Below, piece after piece: positions 1,460-15,436 of a stretch of DNA of 64,000 bases. The first letter of the stretch is position 1, and each line of letters starts with the position of its first letter. The notes under the pieces were generated by a model. That model was not told where the DNA came from. It did not search any database and saw nothing but the letters and a program-made list of their open reading frames with translations. This DNA comes from an uncultured Phycisphaerae bacterium (lineage in GTDB: Bacteria; Planctomycetota; Phycisphaerae; UBA1845; Fen-1342): contig CALGJV010000007.1 of the NCBI GenBank assembly GCA_937928595.1, positions 1 through 64,000 on the forward strand, read 5' to 3'. Both the position numbers and the translations under genes were made by a program.

Positions 1460-1799
1460 GGACGGGCCTCGCTGCGACGCACCGCGGGAACGCCGCCGGA
1501 ACCGGCTCCAGCCCGTCGAATATACGGGCGCCGGGGGGTGGGTCAAGCCGCCCCGCCCCGTCGTCGGCCCCCTCCCTGAGAAACGCGCGTCCTCGCGCCC
1601 CCGCCGCCGCCCGCCCCCCGTGATCGGACCCCGCACCGTCGACGCCTCGCGAGTTCGCGCGTATCATGTCCGCTTTCACCCGGACCTTCCGCCCGTCGCG
1701 GCAACTGCGGTGCCGTCGCGACCGGGCCGCCCCGGCCTGCGGTACCCGGCCGTGCCCGTGGCTGCGCGGCCGGCGGCCCCGGCTCTGGAGGATCACATC
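1460..1799. other. Divergent intergenic region between ABC ATPase and GH127 genes
   Basis: 340 bases without a gene. The left part holds the minus-strand promoter at 1519-1546. For the plus strand, TCGACG (1639-1644) and TATCAT (1662-1667) with a 17-base spacer form a weak candidate promoter for the GH127 gene. The remainder is very GC-rich, with no other signal that I can see. Confidence 0.5.
1519..1546 (-). promoter_or_regulatory. Sigma-70-like promoter for the UgpC-type ATPase gene, with overlapping inverted repeat
   Basis: On the minus strand, -35 TTGACC (1546-1541) and -10 TATATT (1524-1519) are separated by 16 bases, each matching 5 of 6 consensus bases. Transcription would begin near 1512, giving a leader of about 53 bases. 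The -10 is bracketed by an inverted repeat, CCCGT (1512-1516) and ACGGG (1524-1528), which could be a repressor operator. Confidence 0.5.
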
Positions 1800-4220
1800 G
1801 TGACCGCTGTCGAACGCCCCCCGACGACCCCCGCCGTCACGCTGTATGTCGGCAACCGGCCGCCGCTCCAGCCGAGCCCGCTGGTGAAGCTGCCGATCGG
1901 CGCGATCCGGCCGCGGGGCTGGGTGCTGACGCAGCTGCTGCTCGAGGCGGAGGGATTCTCGGGCCGGCTGACGGAATTGAGCGAGTTCTTGCGCAAGGAA
2001 GGCAACGGCTGGTTGTCGCCCGACGGCGCAGGCGCGCACGGCTGGGAGGAAGTCCCCTACTGGCTGAAAGGTTTCGGTGACCTCGGCTACGTGCTCGGGG
2101 ACGAGCGGATCATCCGGGAAGCGCGCGTCTGGATCGAGGGCGCGCTCGCGACCCAGCGGGAAGACGGCTACTTCGGGCCGCGGGTCAACCTGACGAGCCT
2201 GAACGGCAAGCCGGACCTGTGGCCGCACATGATCATGCTGAACGCGCTCCAGTCGTACCATGAGTTCAGCGGCGACCGGCGCGTGCTCGACTTCATGACG
2301 AAGTACTTCCGCTGGCAGCTCGCGGTGCCGGAGGACGACTTCCTCGTCCCGTTCTGGCAGCAGCAGCGGGGGTCCGACAACCTCGCCAGCGTGTACTGGC
2401 TCTACAACCGGACGGGCGACGCGTGGCTGCTCGAGCTCGGGCACCGGATCCACCGCCGCACGGCGCCGTGGACCGAGCGCGTCGCGAACTGGCACGGCGT
2501 GAACATCGCCCAGGCCTTCCGCGGCCCGGCCGTGTACTACCAGCAGTCCGGCGATCCGCGGCACCTCCAGGCGACCTGGGACCGCATCGCGGACGTCTGG
2601 GGGGTGTACGGGCAGGTGCCGGGCGGCGGCTACGGCTCCGACGAGAACTGCCGGCCCGGCTACACCGGCCCTCGCCAGGGCACGGAAACGTGCACGTGGG
2701 CCGAGCTGATGCTGTCCTACGAGATGCTGCTCAAGATCGACGGCGACCCGCGTTGGGCCGACCGTTGTGAGGACGTGGCCTTCAACTCGCTGCCGGCGTC
2801 GATGACCGCGGACCTGAAGGCCCTGCGCTACCTGACCGCGCCGAACCTCGTGGTCGCCGACCGCCGGAACCACGCCCCGGGCATCGAGAACGGCGGCGAG
2901 ATGCTCTCGTACAACCCGCACGGCTACCGCTGCTGCCAGCACAACGTGGCGCACGCCTGGCCGTACTACGTCGAGCACCTCTGGCTGGCCACCGCGGGCG
3001 GCGGGCTGGCCGCCGCGCTGTACGCCCCGTGCGAGGTGCGGGCGCAAGTCGCCGACGGCGTCGAGGTGACGATCGTCGAGGACACGCAGTACCCGTTCGA
3101 CGAGACCGTCACGTTCACGATCACGCCGGCCCGCCCGGCGTCGTTCGCGCTGTACTTGCGCGTGCCCGGCTGGTGCCGCGCGCCGCGGGTGCAGGTCAAC
3201 GGTCAGAACGGGATGCCGCACCGGCCGAACGCGCCTGCGGGCTACCTCGTGCTCGAGCGCACCTGGCAGCCGGGTGACACGGTCGAACTGCGGCTGCCGA
3301 TGGCGATCACGCTGCGCCGCTGGGAGAAGAACGACGACAGCATCTCCGTCGATCGCGGACCGCTGACCTTCTCGCTCGAAATCGGCGAGCAGTACGCCCG
3401 CTACTCGGGCACGGCGCGCCCGGAGCTCGACGCCGCCTGGCCCGCCCATGAAGTGCTGCCGACGACGCCGTGGAACTACGGGCTGGCGGTCGACCCGTCG
3501 GCCCCCGAGCGGTCGTTCGAGGTCGTGCGGCGGCCGTGGGACGGCACGGCGCAGCCCTTCACGCTCGCGGCCGCGCCGGTGACGCTCAAGGCGCGGGCGC
3601 GGAAGATCCCCGGTTGGAAGCTCGATCCGCTGTGCGGCCTGGTCGGCAACCTCCAGCCGAGCCCGGCGAAGTCCGACGAGCCCGAGGAGACGGTGACGCT
3701 GGTGCCGATGGGCTGCGCGCGGCTGCGCGTGGCGGCGCTGCCCACGCTCGGCGTCGGGCCCGACGCCCACGAGTGGGTCTACCGCGAGCCGCCGGCCCGG
3801 CCGTCGCACTACTTCGACAACATCACGGCGCTGTCGGACGGCCGGCTCCCGTCCAGCTCGAACGACCACAGCATCCCGCGCTTTACCTGGGGGGACCACA
3901 AGGGCACGCTCGAGTGGGTGCAGTACAGCTACGAGCGGCCGCGGAAGTTCTCGCAGGCCGCGGTGTACTGGTTCGACGACACCGGGCAGGGCGCCTGCCG
4001 CGTGCCGCAGTCGTGGCGGCTGCTGTACCAGGTGAAGGCCCGCGAGATGGCGGCCGAGGGCGAGTGGCAGCCGGTCGAGCTGGTCGCGGGCGCGTACGAG
4101 TGCGCGCCGGACAAGCTCCACGTCGTGCAGTTCAAACCGGTGGAGACGACCGGCCTGCGGCTGGAGGTGCAGTTGCAGCCGAACTTCTCCGGCGGGGTAC
4201 TGGAATGGAGGGTCGAATGA
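1800..4220 (+). CDS. Glycoside hydrolase family 127 (DUF1680) protein, probable beta-L-arabinofuranosidase
   Basis: An 806-residue member of the DUF1680/GH127 family, whose characterised members release beta-L-arabinofuranose from plant glycans using a cysteine nucleophile held by a zinc-cysteine site. The metal ligands are visible: E296-T-C298, then C378-C379 in R-C-C-Q-H-N. This spacing agrees with the Glu-x-Cys ... Cys-Cys arrangement of the family. An (alpha/alpha) barrel spans roughly residues 15-430, then beta-domains. The last ~140 residues (P-S-H-Y-F-D-N-I onwards) look like a discoidin-type F5/8C module. The GTG at 1800 is preferred because GGAGGA lies 7 bases upstream; a longer in-frame extension is low-complexity and non-conserved. 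No signal peptide is evident, so it may act inside the cell. The stop overlaps the next start (ATGA), so the two genes are translationally coupled. Confidence 0.88.
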   Translation: MTAVERPPTTPAVTLYVGNRPPLQPSPLVKLPIGAIRPRGWVLTQLLLEAEGFSGRLTELSEFLRKEGNGWLSPDGAGAHGWEEVPYWLKGFGDLGYVLGDERIIREARVWIEGALATQREDGYFGPRVNLTSLNGKPDLWPHMIMLNALQSYHEFSGDRRVLDFMTKYFRWQLAVPEDDFLVPFWQQQRGSDNLASVYWLYNRTGDAWLLELGHRIHRRTAPWTERVANWHGVNIAQAFRGPAVYYQQSGDPRHLQATWDRIADVWGVYGQVPGGGYGSDENCRPGYTGPRQGTETCTWAELMLSYEMLLKIDGDPRWADRCEDVAFNSLPASMTADLKALRYLTAPNLVVADRRNHAPGIENGGEMLSYNPHGYRCCQHNVAHAWPYYVEHLWLATAGGGLAAALYAPCEVRAQVADGVEVTIVEDTQYPFDETVTFTITPARPASFALYLRVPGWCRAPRVQVNGQNGMPHRPNAPAGYLVLERTWQPGDTVELRLPMAITLRRWEKNDDSISVDRGPLTFSLEIGEQYARYSGTARPELDAAWPAHEVLPTTPWNYGLAVDPSAPERSFEVVRRPWDGTAQPFTLAAAPVTLKARARKIPGWKLDPLCGLVGNLQPSPAKSDEPEETVTLVPMGCARLRVAALPTLGVGPDAHEWVYREPPARPSHYFDNITALSDGRLPSSSNDHSIPRFTWGDHKGTLEWVQYSYERPRKFSQAAVYWFDDTGQGACRVPQSWRLLYQVKAREMAAEGEWQPVELVAGAYECAPDKLHVVQFKPVETTGLRLEVQLQPNFSGGVLEWRVE

Positions 4221-4879
4221 GATTCATGTCGTTGCTCGTACCGGGCGGGCAGCCACACCCCCGTGCCGGGCTGTTCCTGGCCCTCTTTGTTGCCGGAGCT
4301 TCGCGCATGTCCCTCGCCGCGCCGCCGCGCGACTACCCCATCACGCCCGTCCCGTTTACCCCCGTCCGCGTCACCGATGCCTTCTGGCAGCCGCGGTTCG
4401 AAACCAACCGCACCGTCACGCTGCCGTACTGCCTCCGCAAGTGCGAGGAGACCGGCCGCATCGACAACTTCCTGCGGGCCGGGGGCAAGCTGCCCGGCCC
4501 GTACCAGGGCTACGCCTTCAACGACTCGGACGTGTTCAAGGTGGTCGAGGGCGCGGCCTACGCGCTGGCCCAGCACCCCGATCCCCGGCTCGATCAGTAC
4601 CTCGACGAGCTCATCGCCAGGTTCGCCGCGGCCCAGGAGCCCGACGGCTACCTCTACGCCGCCCGCACGACCGACGGCGAGAAAGTGCCGGAGATGAGCG
4701 GCAAGACGCGCTACAGCAACCTGCGCTGGAGCCACGAGCTCTACAACGTCGGCCACCTCTACGAGGCGGCCGTGGCGCACCACGCCGCCACCGACAAGCG
4801 GAATCTCCTCGCGGTCGCGCTGAAATCGGCGGACCATGTGCAGCGCGAGTTCGGCCCTGGCCTGCTCCCCGAAATCTGA
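4217..4879 (+). pseudogene. Truncated second GH127 gene (N-terminal part only)
   Basis: The frame encodes 220 residues that begin with a likely signal peptide (hydrophobic run about residues 19-36, then A-A-P-P) and continue as a clear GH127 N-terminal region: V-T-D-A-F-W-Q-P-R-F-E, N-D-S-D-V-F-K, E-P-D-G-Y-L-Y, W-S-H-E-L-Y-N-V-G-H-L. Complete family members run 600-800 residues. Here the match stops after R-E-F-G-P-G, followed by five unrelated residues and a stop. No continuation is recognisable in any frame downstream, where the sequence becomes a CT-rich tandem repeat. The zinc-binding Glu-x-Cys and Cys-Cys elements are therefore missing and the product cannot be an active GH127 enzyme. 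Its ATG overlaps the stop of the upstream GH127 gene. A true short protein cannot be excluded, but a deletion is more likely. Confidence 0.75.
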
Positions 4880-5136: not shown

Positions 5137-6318
5137 TCAGGTCGCGGGCCGCAACTCGAACTGGAAGTGCGGGTTGAGCACCGAGTTCTTGTTCTTGTTC
5201 ATGAACTGCACCTCGACGCGATGCGGTCCGAACGTGGTTTCCGGCGGCAGCACCACGCGCAGCCGGTAACCCTCGTTCGTGAACTCGTGCGGCACGCGGT
5301 AGCCGTCGATGCGCACCACGATCGTGTCGCTAAGGATCATCTGGCGCTCGCTGCCCCAGGCCCGGCGGCCGCGCAGTCCGTCGTCGAGCTCGAACACGAG
5401 CACGCCCGCCGCCGGACGGGCCCCGCCCGCGTCCGCGCCCGTGCCGGCCTGCGGCGCGGTCGTCGTCACGGGGTCGCGGATCAGCACGCCGTCCGCCGGC
5501 TCGACCAGCCGCGCCCGCGGCAACCCGGCCGCGGCGTAGCGGGCCAGGCCGAGAAACAGGCCCCAGGCCTCCCTCAGGTTCCATTCCGGCGTGCGGAGAC
5601 GCTGCTCCTCCTCGGGGTTGGTGAAGAAAGACGTTTCCGTGAGGGCGGCGGTGACCTGGGCGGCGCGGAGCACGCCGAAGCCGTCCTTGTACATGAGCTG
5701 GTCGCTCTTGAGCGGGACGTCCGTGATCTGCGGCAGGGCCAGACTGTCGTAGAGCCCCTCGCACAGGTAGCGGGCGAGGTCGAGGTTCGCCGGGCGGTAG
5801 TCCACGTCACGGTGATACCACACGGTCGTGAAGTTGGTCCGCGGCTTGTCCACGGCGTTGTGATGCAGAGAGATGAACAGGTCGGCGCCCCAGTCGTTGG
5901 CGACGGCGGCGCGGGCCGCGAGCGTCGCATCGGTGTCGTCGGTGCGCGTCAGGCGGACCTCGGCCCCGGCGGCGCGGAGCAGGTCGTGCAGGTACTGGGC
6001 CACGCGCAGGTTCACCTCCGCCTCCCGCACGCCCGTCGGCCCGCGCTTGAAGCCGCGCTTGTGGGCGTCGCCGCCGTGCCCGGGGTCCAGGCAGATCTTC
6101 ACGCCGCGCAGAAACTTCGCCCAGGGCGGGATCACGTACGGCGGCGTGCCGATCCGCATGATCGCGTAGCAGCGCGGCGCGTCGTGCAGCGTGTTGACCG
6201 CCACCATCGGGTCCGGCGTCGGCGCCGGGGCGGGCGCCGCGGCCGGAGCCCGGCACCCCAGCAGCACGCCGACTCCGCACGCCCCCAACAGCCACGCCGC
6301 GATCGTTCGTTGCCGCAT
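5137..6318 (-). CDS. N-acetylmuramoyl-L-alanine amidase (Amidase_3), lipoprotein
   Basis: A 393-residue zinc amidase that should cleave the bond between MurNAc and the stem peptide of peptidoglycan. The N-terminus is a lipoprotein signal (L-L-G-C, lipid-modified Cys22). The catalytic domain starts near residue 74 with I-C-L-D-P-G-H-G-G (zinc ligand His81) and continues through a metal-binding Glu, I-S-L-H-H-N-A and the catalytic T-E-T-S-F-F-T-N. About 120 residues at the C-terminus form an uncharacterised beta-rich domain. The ATG at 6318 is preceded by a strong GGAGGT; longer in-frame extensions lack homology. It is divergent from murQ and the likely glycan hydrolase, which suggests a shared role in peptidoglycan turnover. 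The enzyme should sit on the periplasmic side of a membrane. Confidence 0.9.
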   Translation of the reverse strand: MRQRTIAAWLLGACGVGVLLGCRAPAAAPAPAPTPDPMVAVNTLHDAPRCYAIMRIGTPPYVIPPWAKFLRGVKICLDPGHGGDAHKRGFKRGPTGVREAEVNLRVAQYLHDLLRAAGAEVRLTRTDDTDATLAARAAVANDWGADLFISLHHNAVDKPRTNFTTVWYHRDVDYRPANLDLARYLCEGLYDSLALPQITDVPLKSDQLMYKDGFGVLRAAQVTAALTETSFFTNPEEEQRLRTPEWNLREAWGLFLGLARYAAAGLPRARLVEPADGVLIRDPVTTTAPQAGTGADAGGARPAAGVLVFELDDGLRGRRAWGSERQMILSDTIVVRIDGYRVPHEFTNEGYRLRVVLPPETTFGPHRVEVQFMNKNKNSVLNPHFQFELRPAT

Positions 6319-6490
6319 CGCCGCACCTCCGGCCGGCCGCCGCCGGCCCGTCTGACAATCCGCCCGCATTATGTCGCGAGCGGCGGCCGCGGCCCAGTTG
6401 TCGCGGCCCGGGTTGTTGCACGGGCCCGCCGGATCGGCCACACTAGGGCCGCGCGGGGGCTTGTGGGTCCGGAAGTACGGAGCCTCCCGG

Positions 6491-7411
6491 ATGCAGGATC
6501 GCGGACACCTCCTCACCGAGCTGCGCAACCCCCGCTCGACGCATATTGATCGCGTCTCGATCGCCGAGGCGGTGGACATTCTGAACGCCGAGGATGCGAC
6601 GATTCCGGCGGCGGTGGCGGCGGCGAAGCCGCAGATCATCCGGGCGATCGAGCTGGTGGTGGCGGCGTTCGAGGCGGGCGGGCGGCTGATTTACGTCGGG
6701 GCGGGCACGAGCGGGCGGCTGGGGGTGCTGGACGCGTCGGAGTGTCCGCCGACGTTCCTGTCGGATCCGCGGATGGTGCAGGGCATCATCGCGGGGGGGT
6801 GGGACGCGCTGCGGATGGCGGTCGAGGGGGCGGAGGATCACGAGTCGGACGGGGCGGCGGCCATTGACGAGAAGGAAGTCGGACCGCACGACGTGGTGTT
6901 CGGGATCACGACGGGCGGCACCACGCCGTACGTGCACGGGGCGCTGCGGCGGGCGAGGGAGCGCGGCGCCAAAACGGTCTTCTTCGCGTGCGTGAAGGCG
7001 GAGCACGTCGCCAGCGAAGCGGATGTCGAGATTCGCGTGCTCGTCGGCCCCGAAGTCATCACCGGCAGCACCCGGCTGAAGGCCGGCACGGCGACGAAGC
7101 TCGTGCTGAACATGGTCACGACGATCGCGATGGTGCGGATCGGCAAGGTCTACGAGAACCTGATGGTCGACGTGAACACCCGCGCCAACCGCAAGCTCGT
7201 CGACCGCGGGACCCGCATGATCATGACGGTCACGGGGCTGGAGCGGTCGGCGGCGGCCGAGCTGCTGACGCGCAGCGGCGGCCACGTGAAGACGGCGCTG
7301 GTCATGCACGCCCGCGGCGTGGACCGGGCCGAGGCGGAGCGCCTGCTGGCGACGACGCGCGGGCATCTGGCGCCGCTGCTGGCGCCGGCGGCCGGTCCGC
7401 CGCACCCGTAG
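6491..7411 (+). CDS. murQ: N-acetylmuramic acid 6-phosphate etherase MurQ
   Basis: A 306-residue cytoplasmic etherase that converts MurNAc 6-phosphate to GlcNAc 6-phosphate and D-lactate, the key step in recovering the muramic acid of peptidoglycan. The length matches the family. The SIS domain carries the hallmark G-A-G-T-S-G-R-L-G-V-L-D-A-S-E-C-P-P-T-F, a second phosphosugar-binding stretch G-I-T-T-G-G-T-T-P-Y, and the conserved K-A-G-T-A-T-K-L-V-L-N-M and N-x-K-L-V-D-R-G-T-R motifs. The ATG at 6491 fits the family N-terminus (L-L-T-E-L-R-N-P-R-S). It is first in a same-strand group with an SSS symporter (67-base gap) and a DigH-like hydrolase, which points to import and degradation of peptidoglycan fragments. 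No MurNAc kinase is present in the window. Confidence 0.95.
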   Translation: MQDRGHLLTELRNPRSTHIDRVSIAEAVDILNAEDATIPAAVAAAKPQIIRAIELVVAAFEAGGRLIYVGAGTSGRLGVLDASECPPTFLSDPRMVQGIIAGGWDALRMAVEGAEDHESDGAAAIDEKEVGPHDVVFGITTGGTTPYVHGALRRARERGAKTVFFACVKAEHVASEADVEIRVLVGPEVITGSTRLKAGTATKLVLNMVTTIAMVRIGKVYENLMVDVNTRANRKLVDRGTRMIMTVTGLERSAAAELLTRSGGHVKTALVMHARGVDRAEAERLLATTRGHLAPLLAPAAGPPHP

Positions 7412-7478
7412 CATCCGCCGCGCGGCGCCGGTCGTCGCGCGGCGTCGCCGAGGTCGTCCCGGCGCGTGGAGGATGGGA

Positions 7479-9386
7479 ATGCCGCTCGCGACCGTCAGCG
7501 CGCAGTTCACGGCGATCGACTGGGGGGTCGTGATCGCGTTCCTGGCCTTCACGACGCTGCTGGGGACGAAGCTCGCCGGCCAGCAGGCCACGCTGCGGGA
7601 TTTCTTCCTCGGCGGCCGCAAGCTGCCGTGGTACGCGGTGAGCGGCTCCATCATCGCCACCGAGATCAGCGCGGTGACGTTCATCGGCGTGCCGTACGTG
7701 GTATTCAAGCCGGGCGGCAACTTCACGTACCTCCAGCTCGGGGTGTTCGGCTCGCTGCTGGCGCGCATCATCGTGGGGTTCGTGCTCGTGCCGCAGTACT
7801 ACCGCCGCGAGATCTACAGCCCGTACGACTACATGGGGCACCAGCTCGGGCAGCGCGTCCGCACGATGACGAGCGGGCTGTTTCTGCTTGGGGCGATGCT
7901 GGCGCAGTCGGCCCGCGTCTATCTCACCGTGCAGATCATGATCGTGCTCCTGAACGACCAGATCGGCGCGCTGGTGGCGCGGTTCGGGCTGAACGAACTC
8001 GCCTGGGCCGCCATCATCCTGGCGGTCATCGCGATCGGCTGGGCCCTCGTCGGCGGAATCACGACGGTCATCTGGACCAACCTGACGCTGTTCCTCACGT
8101 TCCTCGTCGGCGCCGTCGTGGCCCTGGGGGTCATCGCCTGGAAGCTCGACGGCGGCCTGCTCGAGATCTTGCGCGTCGGCTTCGCCGCGCCCGGCTCCGC
8201 CCCCGAAGGACTCCCCGCGGCGCTGAACTGGGGCAAGTTCACCTTCTTCGACTTCAGCCCGAGTCCGGTCCGGGACTTCACCATCTGGACCGCCGTGATC
8301 GCCAGCACCTGGGGCGGTCTGTTCTCCTACGGCACGGACCAGCTCCTCGTGCAGGGCATGTTCTGCTGCCGCGACGCCCGCGAAGCCCGCAAGGCCATCA
8401 TCGGCAGCGCGTTCGGCCAGGTCGTCACCGCGACCGTCATGCTCGTCGGCGTCGGCCTCTACGCCTACTACCAGGCGCACCCGCTGACCGGCGAAGCCCT
8501 CGCCCTCTACGAAGCCAAGGGCGACCGCATCTTTCCGATCTTCATCTGCCAGGTCGTCCCCGTCGGCCTGAGGGGTCTCATCATGGCCGCGGCCCTGGCG
8601 GCCGCGATCTCGACGATCATGGGCGTCCTGACCGCCCTCAGCCAGACCGTCATGGGCGCCTTCTATACGCCGCTCCGCAAGCGCATCCTCGAGCGCCGCG
8701 CCGCCGCCGGCCGATGCGCGTCCTGCGGCTACGACCAACGCGGCCGGGTGCACGACCGCTGCTCCGAATGCGGCCACGCGGTCGGCGCCCCGCCCCCGGG
8801 CGAAGACCGCCGGAATCTGCGGCTGAGTCGCGCGCTGATCGTGTTCTGGGGGGTCGTGTTGTGCACGCTCGCGTATCTGACCGACGCGATCGCCCACCGC
8901 GAACCGTCGATCCTGCAACTGGCCCTGGCGGCGGCGGGCTATGCCGGCGGGGCGCTGCTGGGGTGCTTCGCGCTCGCCTTCCTGCCGCTGGGCGTGGACG
9001 GGCGCGGGTACATGTGGGCCGCGCCGCTGTCGGTGGCTTATGTGTACGCCCTGGCGTGGCACAACCCGGCCTCGCATTGGGCCTGCGCGATTTTCGGCGT
9101 CGCGCTCCTGGCGGGCTGGCTAGTCTGGCAGCTTGTGCCTGCGGGCCGCGACGCCGGGCCCCGCGTCCTCCCCGCCCCCGTGCAGTTCCTCGTGCTGCTC
9201 GCGGGCGTGGTCGGCATGTCGCTGATCAACCGGTACGGCTACTGGGCGAACCCGCTGGATCCGGCCAAGCCGCTGTGTGTCGCCTGGCCGTGGTACGCCC
9301 CGCTCGGCAGCCTCGTGGCGGTCGTTTGGGGCTACCTGCTCGCGCGTCGCAAGCTTCCCGCACAGGCCCCGGCGACCGCCGGATAA
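7479..9386 (+). CDS. Sodium:solute symporter (SSS family) with an inserted zinc ribbon; candidate muropeptide/amino-sugar importer
   Basis: A 635-residue polytopic membrane protein of the SSS family. The first ~410 residues hold the conserved core: F-F-L-G-G-R-K-L-P-W-Y, T-E-I-S-A-V-T-F-I-G, P-Y-D-Y-M-G, S-T-W-G-G-L-F-S-Y-G-T-D-Q, and A-A-I-S-T-I-M-G-V-L-T-A-L-S-Q. Between this core and a C-terminal block of about six more membrane helices lies a cytosol-style zinc ribbon, Cys413-x2-Cys416 ... Cys428-x2-Cys431, with the C-G-Y-D-Q-R-G signature. That is not part of normal SSS proteins. The ATG at 7479 is preferred over the one at 7473, because GGAGG at 7468-7472 gives a 6-base spacing only for the former. 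Position between murQ and a DigH-like hydrolase suggests the substrate is a peptidoglycan sugar; this is inference. Confidence 0.88.
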   Translation: MPLATVSAQFTAIDWGVVIAFLAFTTLLGTKLAGQQATLRDFFLGGRKLPWYAVSGSIIATEISAVTFIGVPYVVFKPGGNFTYLQLGVFGSLLARIIVGFVLVPQYYRREIYSPYDYMGHQLGQRVRTMTSGLFLLGAMLAQSARVYLTVQIMIVLLNDQIGALVARFGLNELAWAAIILAVIAIGWALVGGITTVIWTNLTLFLTFLVGAVVALGVIAWKLDGGLLEILRVGFAAPGSAPEGLPAALNWGKFTFFDFSPSPVRDFTIWTAVIASTWGGLFSYGTDQLLVQGMFCCRDAREARKAIIGSAFGQVVTATVMLVGVGLYAYYQAHPLTGEALALYEAKGDRIFPIFICQVVPVGLRGLIMAAALAAAISTIMGVLTALSQTVMGAFYTPLRKRILERRAAAGRCASCGYDQRGRVHDRCSECGHAVGAPPPGEDRRNLRLSRALIVFWGVVLCTLAYLTDAIAHREPSILQLALAAAGYAGGALLGCFALAFLPLGVDGRGYMWAAPLSVAYVYALAWHNPASHWACAIFGVALLAGWLVWQLVPAGRDAGPRVLPAPVQFLVLLAGVVGMSLINRYGYWANPLDPAKPLCVAWPWYAPLGSLVAVVWGYLLARRKLPAQAPATAG

Positions 9387-9424
9387 GGCCACGCACCGAC
9401 TCCCGTTTTGTCGGAGAAACGCCC

Positions 9425-10639
9425 ATGTCCGGTCTTTCCCGTTCGATCCGCTGCTCCGTCCGCGGCACCGCGCTCGCGCTGTTGGGCGGGGCCGTGCTCC
9501 TTCTGCTCGCCTCCGGCTGCCGAACGGCCCCGCCCGGTGCCACCCCGTCGCCGATCCGGGCCGTGTGGGTGACGCGCGGCGACTATCGCTCGGCCGACGA
9601 CGTCACGCGCATCCTGGAGAACTGCCGGGCCGCCGGTTTCAACACCGTGATCTTCCAGGTGCGCGGCAACGGCACGGCGTTCTACAAGTCGAGCCTCGAG
9701 CCGTGGGCCGACGAGCTGGGCGGCCAGGACCCCGGCTGGGATCCGCTCGCGCACGCCTGCCGCGAAGCCCACGCCCGCAACCTCCGGCTTCAGGCCTGGG
9801 TCAACGTGATGCCCGCGTGGCGCGGCAAGAAACCGCCCGCCCACCCGGAGCAGCTTTATCACAAGCACCCGGAATGGTTCTGGTACGATCAACACGGCAA
9901 CCGCCAGCCGCTCTCGGACTTCTACGTCAGCCTGAACCCCTGCCTGCCGGAGGTGCGGGCGTACCTGGTCAGCGTGTTTCAGGAGATCGTCGCGAGCTAC
10001 GACATCGACGGCCTGCACCTTGACTACATCCGCTTCCCGAACGAGCCGCCCGCCACGCCGGCCCGGTCCGACATCGACTACCCCTACGACGCCGCCACGC
10101 TCGCGCTGTACCGGGAGGAGACCGGCCGGGCGCCGGCCGACGACCAGGCGGCGTGGAACGCCTGGCGGACGGAGCAGGTCACGCGCCTCGTGACCGAGAT
10201 CCGCGACATGGTGAAACGCACCAAGCCGCAACTGCCGCTCACCGCAGCGGTGGGCTCGGTGCCGGCCAACGCGCTCAAGCACTTTCAGGATGGGAAACGC
10301 TGGGCCGAGGAGGGGCTCGTCGATGCCGTGTACCTGATGAACTACACCGACTCGACCGCCGAGTTCGAGAAGCGCATCGGTCCGTGGCTCACGCCGCCGC
10401 CGCGGGCCGCGGTCGTGCCGGGGCCTTGGTTCGGTCGTCACCCCGGCAAGACGCCGCAGGAGGCCGCGGAGGTCGTGCGGCAGCAGATCGAGATCGCCCG
10501 CCAGCTGACCGGAAACTTCTGCCTGTTCTCGTACGCCGGGCTGTTCGAGACGCGCGACCGCGAGGCCGCGACGCAGCCCACAGCCCGCGAGCAGCGCCGC
10601 GCGGTGCTGCTGCCGTACCTCGCCGCGCTGGATCGCTGA
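9425..10639 (+). CDS. GHL10-family glycoside hydrolase-like lipoprotein (DigH/YddW-like)
   Basis: A 404-residue protein of the glycosyl-hydrolase-like 10 (DUF187) family. E. coli DigH (YddW) of this family cleaves denuded peptidoglycan glycan strands. The N-terminus is a lipoprotein signal ending L-A-S-G-C. The barrel then shows I-R-A-V-W-V-T-R, N-T-V-I-F-Q-V-R-G-N-G, L-R-L-Q-A-W-V-N, S-L-N-P-C-L-P-E-V-R, D-G-L-H-L-D-Y-I-R-F-P, L-T-A-A-V-G-S and V-Y-L-M-N-Y, all typical of GHL10. It lies 38 bases after the symporter gene and is probably in one operon with murQ. With the divergent amidase this would supply denuded strands, cut them and import the sugars. The exact glycosidic bond cut here is unproven. 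Confidence 0.88.
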   Translation: MSGLSRSIRCSVRGTALALLGGAVLLLLASGCRTAPPGATPSPIRAVWVTRGDYRSADDVTRILENCRAAGFNTVIFQVRGNGTAFYKSSLEPWADELGGQDPGWDPLAHACREAHARNLRLQAWVNVMPAWRGKKPPAHPEQLYHKHPEWFWYDQHGNRQPLSDFYVSLNPCLPEVRAYLVSVFQEIVASYDIDGLHLDYIRFPNEPPATPARSDIDYPYDAATLALYREETGRAPADDQAAWNAWRTEQVTRLVTEIRDMVKRTKPQLPLTAAVGSVPANALKHFQDGKRWAEEGLVDAVYLMNYTDSTAEFEKRIGPWLTPPPRAAVVPGPWFGRHPGKTPQEAAEVVRQQIEIARQLTGNFCLFSYAGLFETRDREAATQPTAREQRRAVLLPYLAALDR

Positions 10640-10668
10640 GCCGCGGCGTCCGGCCGGCGCGGCTCAGC
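10635..10668. terminator. Perfect hairpin enclosing both convergent stop codons
   Basis: GCTGAGCCGCG (10635-10645) pairs perfectly with CGCGGCTCAGC (10658-10668) around a 12-base loop. The TGA codons of both convergent genes (10637-10639 on plus, 10666-10664 on minus) lie in opposite arms of the stem. There is no T-tract, so it is a GC-only bidirectional terminator candidate or a 3'-end protecting structure. Confidence 0.55.
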
Positions 10669-13015
10669 GCCGCCCGAAACCCGTCCCCGGCGCGTCCCAG
10701 CGGCGGTCGGCCTTCCACTCCTCCGGCCGCGGCGGACCGGTCCGCAGCGCGATCCGCCGCGCGAAGACGTACTCGTCGCGGTGGCCGAGGTTGTACGCGA
10801 GGTTCGCATCCGTCACCTCCTCGAACAGGAAGTAGTGCTGCCCCCCGTACGTCACCCGCAGCAGAACCACCCCGTTCGAGTGCCCGAACGTGTGCCGGAT
10901 GCGCCCGTCCTCCGCGAACAAGGTGCGGTCGAATGCGACGCGGCCGCGCTCGTCGGCCGTGGCCTGCACCGCCGGCGGATCCTCGTAGACCTTCGCATAC
11001 CAGTCCTTCCCCGTTCCGCCGGCGCGATAGCCGGACACGGTCGCGCCGGCGAGCGGCCGGCCGTCGTCGCCCGTGAACTCGTACACCAGCCGGGCCGGGA
11101 TGTCCTGGAGGAACTCGCCGATCGTCGGCGGACTGTTGCAGTTCCCGCCGCGGGCCCGCCAGCCGCTGACCCGGTTCCAGCACATGGCCTCGTAGACGCT
11201 GTAGCGCCACTCGCTGCCGGCCATGTTGCCGGGGTACTTCTGCCAGTGCTGGATGTCCTGATCCAGGGGCATGTGGCGGCCGAGCACGGGGCCCTCGCCG
11301 TCGGTGACACGGAGCGTGCGCCGGGTCAGGTCGGGGCCCGTGCCCGTGTGCACGTTGAACCCGTACGCGTCGACGAGGTACCGGGCGTGCCCCATCTCGT
11401 GGATGTAGCCGTAGCCGCACCAGAAGGGCGGGTCGATTTTGCCGGCGGCGATCCGTCCGTCGGCCAGCGCTGCAATGGCGCGCTCGGGCGACCACCAGTG
11501 GTCCGGCTTCAGCGCGCTGTCGGGGCGCAGATCTACGGCCTCCATACCCCACACCAGATCGACCGTCTTGTCGCGGTTGTCGGGGTTGTTCGAAGGCAAG
11601 CCGCCCGCCAGCGGCAGGGCGAAGTCCGGCACGACCACCAGCCGATCGAGCCGCACACGCTCCGTGATGCCCTCGGGGTATTCGTTGGGATACACCGCCT
11701 CGGTGAACATCAGGTTCCACCGCCGCATCATCCGCTGCGCCCAGCCCGCGAAGCTGTTGGCGTCCTGCGGCGGCAGCCGGTGCTGGTGTTCATGGTGAAA
11801 GTCCCAGAGCGAGCGTTCCACCCAGAACCCGACCGTGATCGCGTTCGTCTGGATCGTCAGCGTGTTGTTCAGCGTGCTCACCTCGTCGAGCGGCTCCACC
11901 GGCGTCAGGGTCAGCGCGAGATCATGCCGCGCAAACTCCCACTTCCACCGCAGATCCAGCGGCACGCCGTCCGTCCCCGGCGGGCCGACCGGCAGCTCCG
12001 TCTCGCCCCGCGCGACCACCGCGCCGTCGAGCCGCCACTCGTATTGCACGCGCACCGGCCGCTCGCCCCAGTTGTACACGTGTCCCCGCCAAGTCACGGT
12101 GCTGCCCTCGACCGGCCAGCCCGCGCGGGGGTCGCGCGAATCGGCCGGCGGGTAGTCGAGCCGCGGCAGACGTTCGATGAAAAAGATCTCCACGTCCGGC
12201 CGCCGGTTCCGAATGCTCCGCGGCTCGCCGATGATCGTGACTGTCTGCTCGAAGTCGCCGCACCGCGCCACGAGCTTGTGCTCACCCGGTGCGCGGACGA
12301 GGAACAGGCCCGGCTGGTCGCCGAAGGGCTCGAGCCCGGGACTCTGCGGCGTCCAGCGGACCTGCTCGTCGGCCGGCATGTCCACCCCGCCCGCCACGGC
12401 CGCCGCCTTCAACCACACCACGCTGTCCACGAGTTTCGGGATGGGCCCGTCCACGTCCCGCCGCCCGGCCGGCGCGTCGGCCTGCCGCCGGTCGATGACC
12501 TGCTGAATCCGCACGCGCTCGACTCGCCCCCGCACGCAGAACTGGAGCTCGCCGATGTGCACGTAGTCATCGCCGGTCTTCCGCCGCACGTCGAGCTGGA
12601 ACGCGCGTGCGGTCACCGCCTCGGGGAGCCCGACCTCCGCCGTGCCGGTCGCCGGCGTCCGCCCGTCCGCCACCAGCACGCGGTACGTCCCGGATTTCGA
12701 AGTCAGGTCCGCGAGGCGGTCCGCGGCCGCCAGCGACCACTCGTGCTCGTTGTTCGAAAAGATCACGCGCACCAGCTCGAACGTGACCGGCTCGTCGAAC
12801 TCGACGCGCAGGAACGCCGGGTTGATCGCGGGCGTGCGGATCAGCGTCCGCGGATCGGCGTCGAAGACCAGCCTGCCCTCGCCGATGTCGAGCGGGGTGG
12901 ACTCGAACGAGCGGATCTTGTCGGCCAAACGCTGGGGCACGTAGTAGGCGTCGGCGGCCGGGGCGACCGCTGCGACGAGCCGGACGGCAACCAGGGTGAG
13001 GAATAAACGCGACAT
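10664..13015 (-). CDS. Secreted protein with F5/8C-like, CARDB-like and HExxH (zincin-like) regions
   Basis: A 783-residue exported protein with an N-terminal signal peptide (M-S-R-L-F-L-T-L-V-A-V ... A-D-A). Residues about 40-175 resemble a discoidin (F5/8C) fold, with L-R-V-E-F-D-E-P-V-T-F-E-L-V and Y-V-H-I-G-E-L-Q-F. Residues about 290-390 look like a CARDB/Ig-like domain (W-R-G-H-V-Y-N-W-G ... L-N-N-T-L). The central part carries H539-E-M-G-H543 in G-Y-I-H-E-M-G-H-A-R-Y-L-V-D-A-Y-G, the zinc-binding signature of zincin metalloproteases, though a third ligand cannot be assigned with confidence. A C-terminal beta-region (about 650 on) resembles a carboxypeptidase-regulatory-like fold (V-Y-E-F-T-G-D-D-G-R-P-L-A-G-A-T-V). 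I do not recognise a named family. It is convergent with the glycoside hydrolase gene. Confidence 0.7.
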   Translation of the reverse strand: MSRLFLTLVAVRLVAAVAPAADAYYVPQRLADKIRSFESTPLDIGEGRLVFDADPRTLIRTPAINPAFLRVEFDEPVTFELVRVIFSNNEHEWSLAAADRLADLTSKSGTYRVLVADGRTPATGTAEVGLPEAVTARAFQLDVRRKTGDDYVHIGELQFCVRGRVERVRIQQVIDRRQADAPAGRRDVDGPIPKLVDSVVWLKAAAVAGGVDMPADEQVRWTPQSPGLEPFGDQPGLFLVRAPGEHKLVARCGDFEQTVTIIGEPRSIRNRRPDVEIFFIERLPRLDYPPADSRDPRAGWPVEGSTVTWRGHVYNWGERPVRVQYEWRLDGAVVARGETELPVGPPGTDGVPLDLRWKWEFARHDLALTLTPVEPLDEVSTLNNTLTIQTNAITVGFWVERSLWDFHHEHQHRLPPQDANSFAGWAQRMMRRWNLMFTEAVYPNEYPEGITERVRLDRLVVVPDFALPLAGGLPSNNPDNRDKTVDLVWGMEAVDLRPDSALKPDHWWSPERAIAALADGRIAAGKIDPPFWCGYGYIHEMGHARYLVDAYGFNVHTGTGPDLTRRTLRVTDGEGPVLGRHMPLDQDIQHWQKYPGNMAGSEWRYSVYEAMCWNRVSGWRARGGNCNSPPTIGEFLQDIPARLVYEFTGDDGRPLAGATVSGYRAGGTGKDWYAKVYEDPPAVQATADERGRVAFDRTLFAEDGRIRHTFGHSNGVVLLRVTYGGQHYFLFEEVTDANLAYNLGHRDEYVFARRIALRTGPPRPEEWKADRRWDAPGTGFGRR

Positions 13016-13586: not shown

Positions 13587-13948
13587 CCGGCGTCGCCACT
13601 CCCACGGGCCCGGCGTCCGCCGCCGGCGCGGGCCATTATCGCCCGCCGCCGCGCCGGCCGATACGCCGGGCCCACCACCATCACCAGAACCCCCTGCCGC
13701 TGCTCATTCGCTTCCGCCTCCGCCCGGCGCGCCCCGCCCGCCGCCGTATCCGCCAACCGGCGTCAGCTTCCGCCCACCGGCGCGCGATGCGATGCACGCG
13801 ACCTAGCGTGCGATATGGTTCGCGGCGGGGGCTTCCGCCATGCGCTTCCGCCCCGCGCGGTGCGGATGCGTCAAGAGGTGCGGCATTCGTGCGACAAGCC
13901 GCGGCGGCTGACCCGCCCCCTGTGCCGACCAGCCCCGTAGCTCCCGGG
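13587..13948. other. Divergent GC-rich intergenic region, no gene seen
   Basis: 362 bases between tadA (minus) and the terminase-like gene (plus). The sequence is Pro/Arg-codon-like GC-rich DNA with no frame showing homology. The frame of the terminase-like gene is open back to 13787, but those extra residues look random. No convincing promoter or repeat is visible. Confidence 0.5.
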
Positions 13949-15436
13949 ATGCCCGACACCGCTGCCGACCTTCCGCCCGCCGCACTCGCCCGCGATCCGC
14001 TCGCCTGGGCGCAACACTTCCTGCCGCACTACTTCACCGATCCGCCCAGCGACTTTCACCGCGAGTTCATGGCCGCGCTGGCGAGTCCGGCCGTTCGCCT
14101 GATCGCCCGCATCGCCCCGCGCGGCCACGCCAAGAGCACGTGCGCCGCCTTCGCGTACCCGCTGTGGTGCCTCTGCCAGCAGCGCCGCCGCAACATCGTG
14201 CTCGTCACCCACGAGCGGGCGCTGGCGACGCAGTTTCTGCGGGACATCCGGCAGGAACTGGAGTGCAACGAGCGGATCCGGGCCGTTTACGGCGACCTGT
14301 GCGCCGGCGAGCCGGCCGCGGCCGACGACGCGGAGCCGCGAAAGCGCACGGCGGCGGGCCCGCGACGGCGCAAGTGGGCTGAGACCGTCTTCACGACCGT
14401 CACGGGCGTCACCGTGCAGGCCAAGGGGGCTGGGGCGGCGTTCCGCGGGCTGCGCGTCGGCCCGCAACGGCCGGACCTGGTGATCTGCGACGACCTCGAG
14501 AAGGACGACACGGTGGCGTCGCCGGCGCGGCGGCGGAAGCTCGAGGCCTGGCTGCAGCGCGTCGTGCTGCCGGCGCTCGCGCCCGAGGGGCAGCTCGTCG
14601 TGCTCGGCTCGCTGCTGCACCACGACGCGTTGCTGGCAAACCTGCGCGACCGGCGGCGCTTCCCACGCTGGGACTACGCCGTGTACCGCGCCATCGAGGC
14701 CCGCCCGCGCCCCGACGGCCGGTTCGAGCGGGTCGCGCTGTGGCCGGCCCGCTGGCCGCTGGCGCGGCTCGACGAGGAACGCGAGCGGATCGGCACGCTC
14801 GCCTTCGAGCAGGAGTACCAGGCCAATCCGGCCGACGAGGCGCAGCGGGTGTTCCGGCCGGAGTGGCTGCGGTCGTACGACCCGGCCGCGCTGGTCCCGC
14901 AGCGGCTGACGAACCTGCTCGCGGTGGACCCGGCGGCCGGCGTGTCGGGCGGGGACTTCTTCGCACTGTGGGTCGGGAGCGTCGACGAGGCCGACGGCAC
15001 GATCTACACGCGGGAGCTGGTGCTGGAGCGCATCAACATCGTCGAGCAGGTGCGGCGCATCATCTCCGCGTGCGCGCGCTGGCGACCGCTGCGGGTCGGC
15101 ATCGAGACGACCGCGTATCAGGCGGCCCTGAAAGACGTGCTGGACGACCACGGCCGCCGCCACGGCCTGTACCTGCCGATCGTGCCGCTGCGGGCGGTCG
15201 GGAACAAGCGGGCGCGGATCGAGGCCAGCGCGGTGTTCTACGAGAACGGCGTCTTCCGCCTGCCGCCGGACCTGCCGCCGGAGGCCGAGCGGCAGTTTCT
15301 CCAGTTCCCGAAGGCCCGGCACGATGACGCCCCAGATGTGTGCGCGATGGGCATCGAGCTGGCCCGGACGGTGCGCGCGGGCGGGCGGGTGGCGGCGTGG
15401 CTGGGTCCGAGGAGGGGCGAGCGCGGGGAGTGGTGA
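13949..15436 (+). CDS. Terminase large-subunit-like ATPase/nuclease (orphan)
   Basis: A 495-residue protein with the two-domain plan of phage terminase large subunits, which package DNA into phage heads. The ATPase half has a Walker A-like R-G-H-A-K-S-T (residues 58-64), and Walker B V-I-C-D181-D-L-E-K-D-D. The RNase H-like nuclease half has A-V-D-P-A-A-G, G-I-E-T-T-A-Y-Q and H-D-D-A-P-D-V. The ATG at 13949 is the best start by homology onset (D-P-L-A-W-A-Q-H-F-L-P-H-Y). No portal, capsid, tail or integrase gene is nearby, so this is either the last relic of a prophage or a domesticated protein. All the motifs are intact, which argues against simple decay. A repeat-rich, gene-free gap follows directly. 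Confidence 0.82.
   Translation: MPDTAADLPPAALARDPLAWAQHFLPHYFTDPPSDFHREFMAALASPAVRLIARIAPRGHAKSTCAAFAYPLWCLCQQRRRNIVLVTHERALATQFLRDIRQELECNERIRAVYGDLCAGEPAAADDAEPRKRTAAGPRRRKWAETVFTTVTGVTVQAKGAGAAFRGLRVGPQRPDLVICDDLEKDDTVASPARRRKLEAWLQRVVLPALAPEGQLVVLGSLLHHDALLANLRDRRRFPRWDYAVYRAIEARPRPDGRFERVALWPARWPLARLDEERERIGTLAFEQEYQANPADEAQRVFRPEWLRSYDPAALVPQRLTNLLAVDPAAGVSGGDFFALWVGSVDEADGTIYTRELVLERINIVEQVRRIISACARWRPLRVGIETTAYQAALKDVLDDHGRRHGLYLPIVPLRAVGNKRARIEASAVFYENGVFRLPPDLPPEAERQFLQFPKARHDDAPDVCAMGIELARTVRAGGRVAAWLGPRRGERGEW

Follow-up and report, generated by a model that had tools for sequence, protein, structure and literature searches.

A conserved murQ, symporter and GHL10 gene cluster and a candidate ROK-fold kinase point to N-acetylmuramic acid catabolism in Planctomycetota

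Does a four-gene locus in an uncultured Phycisphaerae bacterium encode a route for the use of N-acetylmuramic acid (MurNAc), and which proteins would import and phosphorylate the sugar ahead of the MurQ etherase? The locus lies in a stretch of 64,000 nucleotides (the window) from an assembly of 3.69 Mb with planctomycete relatives. Peptidoglycan was long believed to be missing from planctomycetes. A conserved cluster for MurNAc use suggests that peptidoglycan is used by many of them, by recycling of their own wall or by scavenging of foreign material; the sequence fits either mode.

Organization of the locus and proposed pathway

An amidase gene diverges from a same-strand run of murQ, a symporter gene and a GHL10 gene, and both the coordinates and the gene identities of the original prediction proved right. 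The features are as follows.

5137-6318, minus strand: Amidase_3 lipoprotein, predicted N-acetylmuramoyl-L-alanine amidase (PF01520, E=5e-36; PDB relatives AmiA, AmiC and CwlV)
6319-6490: divergent intergenic sequence of 172 bp, presumed promoter region for both units
6491-7411, plus strand: murQ, MurNAc-6-phosphate etherase (TIGR00274; MurQ structures 4lzj/1nri)
7473-9386, plus strand: SSS-family Na+/solute symporter, predicted MurNAc importer (PF00474; SiaT 5nv9; Na2 and carboxylate residues)
8715-8771, plus strand: Cys4 zinc-ribbon-like insert (CASCGYDQRGRVHDRCSEC) in a symporter loop
9425-10639, plus strand: GHL10 lipoprotein, predicted peptidoglycan-glycan cleaving enzyme (PF02638, E=2e-41; Cwp19 fold match)

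The amidase belongs to Amidase_3 by its family match and by the conserved motifs of the catalytic domain (DPGHGG, REAEVNL, SLHHNA and TETSFF, all found). Its lipobox reads LLGC, and its open frame extends to 6639, with the lipoprotein start at 6318. MurQ passes the TIGR00274 equivalog cut-off (376.2 bits versus 302) as the sole copy above it in the genome and aligns with the 4lzj/1nri structures at E=2e-76. The murQ and symporter genes are separated by 61 bp and the symporter and GHL10 genes by 38 bp; the GHL10 protein carries the lipobox ASGC. No sigma-70-type promoter was matched in the divergent intergenic sequence, a null result that is uninformative because the GC content is 70%.

Elsewhere in the window, a gene for a GH127-type beta-L-arabinofuranosidase (1575-4220) is followed by a second GH127 open reading frame; this one ends at 4879, roughly halfway through the catalytic domain (profile positions 2-165 of 376), and is perhaps a truncated gene. 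On the opposite strand from murQ, positions 10664-13015 encode a 783-residue protein with no match in Pfam, NCBIfam or PHROG. A terminase large subunit gene occupies 13787-15436 (phrog_38, E=4e-94; no Pfam match), and no phage gene was recognised among the few neighbours examined.

What would such a set of genes do together? We propose that the four genes probably encode the envelope, import and committing cytoplasmic steps of a MurNAc catabolic pathway, with the kinase and NamZ encoded elsewhere. The amidase lipoprotein would remove stem peptides, and the GHL10 lipoprotein would cleave the denuded glycan. NamZ exo-muramidases encoded elsewhere may then release free MurNAc, which the symporter would bring in together with Na+. 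A ROK-fold kinase (G000:C4:60404-61561, where G000 is the genome of the window) is the candidate for producing MurNAc-6-phosphate, and MurQ would cut its lactyl ether to yield GlcNAc-6-phosphate, with a NagB relative (contig C9) acting further downstream. This proposal draws on observed gene identities, clustering, presence or absence of partner genes and conservation of binding residues, from which we infer each substrate, the direction of flow, the function of the kinase and the bond that the GHL10 protein cuts. The original prediction of a pathway that strips, cuts, imports and splits holds as a coherent MurNAc route with conserved linkage, but not in the novelty of its importer or in the likeness of its GHL10 protein to DigH beyond the family level. 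Several observations run contrary to the proposed pathway: some symporter orthologues are encoded apart from murQ, among them those of three genomes (G405, G307 and G324) that have neither a full kinase match nor NamZ, G341 has the murQ-symporter pair with neither this kinase nor AnmK, the GHL10 residues corresponding to the proposed catalytic residues of Cwp19 are replaced, and the kinase gene lies outside the window.

Conservation of the gene neighbourhood

Co-occurrence was checked in related genomes, and the neighbourhood is conserved within the family and order; the original prediction would have been refuted by the lack of such conservation, and it passes this check. The murQ, symporter and GHL10 genes are consecutive in four genomes of the same family (G330, G347, G318 and G335) and in three further genomes of the same order (G377, G417 and G263). 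The amidase gene is divergent upstream of this block in G330 and G318 and lies ~2.7 kb away in G335; in relatives, it adjoins murQ or the kinase gene in a conserved manner. At four loci (L198, L199, L203 and L261), the complete amidase-murQ-symporter-GHL10 block is present with the kinase gene adjoining the amidase gene, and the murQ stop overlaps the symporter start in L198 and L199. G341 keeps the murQ-symporter pair, and more distant genomes (G019, G192 and G236) keep the symporter-GHL10 pair without murQ. In G077, which belongs to another family of the class, GHL10 and symporter genes stand beside a ROK kinase-MurQ fusion; this fusion is a single open frame (L109:5942-7681). Because the arrangement recurs in many relatives, it is not due to chance.

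Judging conservation from a phylum sample only was rejected as misleading: the closest symporter orthologues in that sample are not beside murQ. A more distant SSS clade does adjoin murQ there, and in the 29 genomes of the sample with an SSS gene no more than 6 kb from murQ, the symporter is mostly of a different clade. Class-level sampling cleared up this picture. In a quick tree of SSS proteins fetched by similarity alone, 14 murQ-linked orthologues grouped together with 97% support (SH-aLRT only), and further murQ-linked SSS groups fell outside this group.

A candidate ROK-fold kinase

Which enzyme would supply MurQ with its phosphorylated substrate? The original prediction placed the matching kinase elsewhere, and a candidate is indeed encoded outside the window. 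The lead came from G330, where actin-like ATPase motifs mark a gene on the far side of the amidase gene. Neither this protein nor its G196 homologue hits any Pfam family at 0.001, the ROK profile included, or has a convincing match to an NCBIfam model. A profile of the family finds one strong copy in the genome of the window (E=5e-131), at the contig C4 position given above; in relatives, the gene stands beside the amidase-murQ-symporter-GHL10 block. The L203 relative was modelled (pLDDT 95.2) and adopts the ROK fold; the structures nearest to it are those of glucokinase and ManNAc kinase, the latter (2yhw) at Z 26.6. Judged from this model, the relative is a ROK-type sugar kinase. Asp156 of kinase A3, taken as the catalytic Asp, is invariant in 59 sequences and aligns with the Asp of the ROK ManNAc kinase.

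Other kinases were also considered. The AnmK route was rejected for the genome of the window, in which PF03702 has no match. BadF-type PF01869 passes its cut-off there solely in a 1157-codon frame (C1:84987-86834) that contains two copies in tandem; no MurK-type kinase is evident in this genome, and a BadF-type sugar kinase looks unlikely. AnmK is found near the cluster in G335, where the ROK-fold kinase is missing, and G341 has the murQ-symporter pair with neither kinase. As for the remaining pathway genes, the genome of the window has two NamZ copies and the NagB relative, and canonical NagA has no match near the cut-off in the family of this genome. NamZ is present in 9 of the 10 tested genomes with adjacent murQ and symporter genes (G371 is the exception) versus 0 of 3 others, counts that are uncorrected for relatedness; it is absent from G405, G307 and G324.

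Of the 10 family and order genomes in which murQ and the symporter gene are adjacent, 8 have the kinase, among them G417 (G417:C9), as against none of the other 13 (Fisher p=9e-5, with no correction for relatedness). At ~80 kinase loci from public genomes, the nearby genes encode GT2 (54 loci), SpoIID/LytB (44), AmpG (27), SSS (23), NamZ (20), murQ (13) and GHL10 (12), counts that are lower bounds because many contigs are short. In Bacteroidota and Calditrichota, the kinase is grouped with GT2, SpoIID/LytB, AmpG and NamZ. We consider it somewhat more probable than the contrary that this ROK-fold family, which neither Pfam nor NCBIfam recognises, adds another class of MurNAc kinase to AmgK, AnmK and MurK, serving PTS-free MurNAc use with SSS importers in Planctomycetota and recycling operons (GT2, SpoIID/LytB, AmpG and NamZ) in Bacteroidota, Calditrichota and Marinimicrobia. 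No literature joining an N-acetylmuramic acid kinase with the ROK family was found, which is weak evidence given that most subscription papers were outside the search.

The pairing with GT2 in other phyla is not explained by a simple MurNAc kinase. The ROK-fold protein could work with GT2 in another envelope step, with MurNAc-6-phosphate coming from a different ROK kinase. Besides the frequency of GT2 at kinase loci, this reading draws on G341, which has murQ and the symporter and lacks the ROK-fold protein, and on Tannerella forsythia, which has a similar gtf-gtf-lytB-ampG-ybbC order and already uses MurK. However, the kinase gene directly precedes the symporter gene at seven loci where no GT2 was detected (L264, L265 and L270-L274) and in G092, G196 and G030, and it directly precedes murQ in G371, L221 and L239. 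Together with the distribution among murQ-symporter genomes, these arrangements make the GT2 explanation doubtful, and a kinase that feeds MurQ is the reading that we prefer.

Several kinase loci have features of their own. The GT2-kinase-SpoIID/LytB-AmpG block is seen at L240:8427-14571 and similar loci from Bacteroidota and Calditrichota. A double-SIS protein resembling the glucokinase regulatory protein is encoded directly downstream of the ROK-fold kinase in L208 (3852-5552); its regulation of the kinase is possible. The public record of L212, a G263 contig, is titled Alphaproteobacteria and carries a planctomycete-type kinase, and the genome groups with the order of the window; the title is probably a mislabel.

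The symporter and the envelope enzymes

The symporter is the sole match to its own sequence in the genome (E<=0.001). It belongs to the SSS family (PF00474, 79.1 bits, cut-off 22.8, E=4e-22) and scores below the TIGR00813 cut-off (133.7 versus 184). Its Cys4 insert is absent from all other SSS proteins compared, including the 73-78% identical symporter of G330. MurNAc bears a lactyl carboxylate, and GlcNAc has none. The best PDB sequence match of the symporter is the sialic acid transporter SiaT (5nv9), in which the substrate carboxylate is bound by Ser60, Thr63 and Arg135 (PMC5931594). In the alignment to SiaT, the Na2 site is complete (A62, I65, A377, S380 and T381), and the three carboxylate-binding residues correspond to S66, T69 and R148, which are invariant in 15 aligned proteins. 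The retained Na2 site and carboxylate residues are what a MurNAc importer would need, and S66, T69 and R148 fit an anionic sugar without proving one. The symporter differs from SiaT in that the Na3 serines are not conserved and Thr58 is replaced by an invariant Glu64, and its predicted substrate is different.

Could the substrate of the symporter instead be a muramyl disaccharide, or else GlcNAc or another neutral amino sugar, with the adjacency to murQ reflecting general amino-sugar use? Symporter and kinase genes stand beside a nagB-type gene without murQ in G092 and G196, in G183/G140 the symporter gene comes after a gene of the nagB type and one for a diverged kinase-like protein, and some genomes that lack NamZ or a full kinase match still encode a symporter orthologue. 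However, these same genomes have murQ elsewhere, the three SiaT-type carboxylate positions are invariant, and the symporter is linked to MurQ, NamZ and the murQ-linked kinase. We therefore regard a neutral-sugar or disaccharide symporter as unlikely and retain MurNAc as the predicted substrate.

Is a sodium symporter for a muramic sugar a new alternative to the PTS and AmpG routes? The importer role put forward in the original prediction is strengthened by the conserved linkage and the retained residues, but its novelty is not, since the MurT protein of T. forsythia is already known as an SSS-type MurNAc importer encoded in a murTKQ operon (a 2016 study, as related in PMC5790795). The T. forsythia system is PTS-independent and links an importer of the sodium symporter superfamily to MurQ and a kinase; the murTKQ operon is part of a nine-gene ampG-murTKQ unit, and the wider cluster also contains NamZ-type ybbC and genes for envelope hydrolases (PMC5790795, PMC5388701). 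Its gene order, gtf-gtf-lytB-ampG-ybbC-murTKQ (PMC5388701), resembles the layout of the Bacteroidota and Calditrichota kinase loci. The likeness of the window to this system is one of superfamily and gene context, as the symporter likewise has a conserved neighbourhood with murQ. In contrast, the kinase of the window's genome is ROK-fold and encoded elsewhere, and the amidase and GHL10 genes flank murQ and the symporter gene. The E. coli MurP-MurQ and AnmK-MurQ routes have MurQ as the committing step in common with the proposed pathway, whereas the genome of the window lacks AnmK and the importer is of the SSS rather than the PTS type. What is new here is an SSS-MurQ route conserved in planctomycetes with an amidase and a GHL10 protein, together with a linked and previously unrecognised ROK-fold kinase family. 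This extends to another phylum a route characterised in one oral pathogen, names an importer and a kinase and gives a candidate function to an unassigned kinase family that recurs in recycling operons across several phyla.

The GHL10 protein has the domain and fold of the DigH/Cwp19 type. Its model (pLDDT 82.9) matches Cwp19 best (Z=35.0 versus 27.1 for the highest-scoring entry that is not Cwp19), and Cwp19 and E. coli DigH are in the same Pfam family. Cwp19 from C. difficile is a lytic transglycosylase (PMC6016235) with Asp196 and Arg132 as proposed catalytic residues (PMC5765458). Across the planctomycete GHL10 subfamily, these positions are Tyr201 and Pro, respectively. The label DigH-like should stay at the family level because both residues are replaced; identity to E. 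coli DigH is 29%. That the amidase and GHL10 protein are ordinary hydrolases of daughter-cell separation beside a MurNAc catabolic pair by chance is improbable: E. coli amidases and DigH do function in cell separation and the amidase gene is divergent, outside the murQ-symporter-GHL10 transcription unit, but another family keeps GHL10 behind the symporter gene where murQ is not part of the block (G019, G192 and G236), and the amidase gene stays beside the kinase gene in G347, where murQ and the symporter gene are on another contig, and also in L196.
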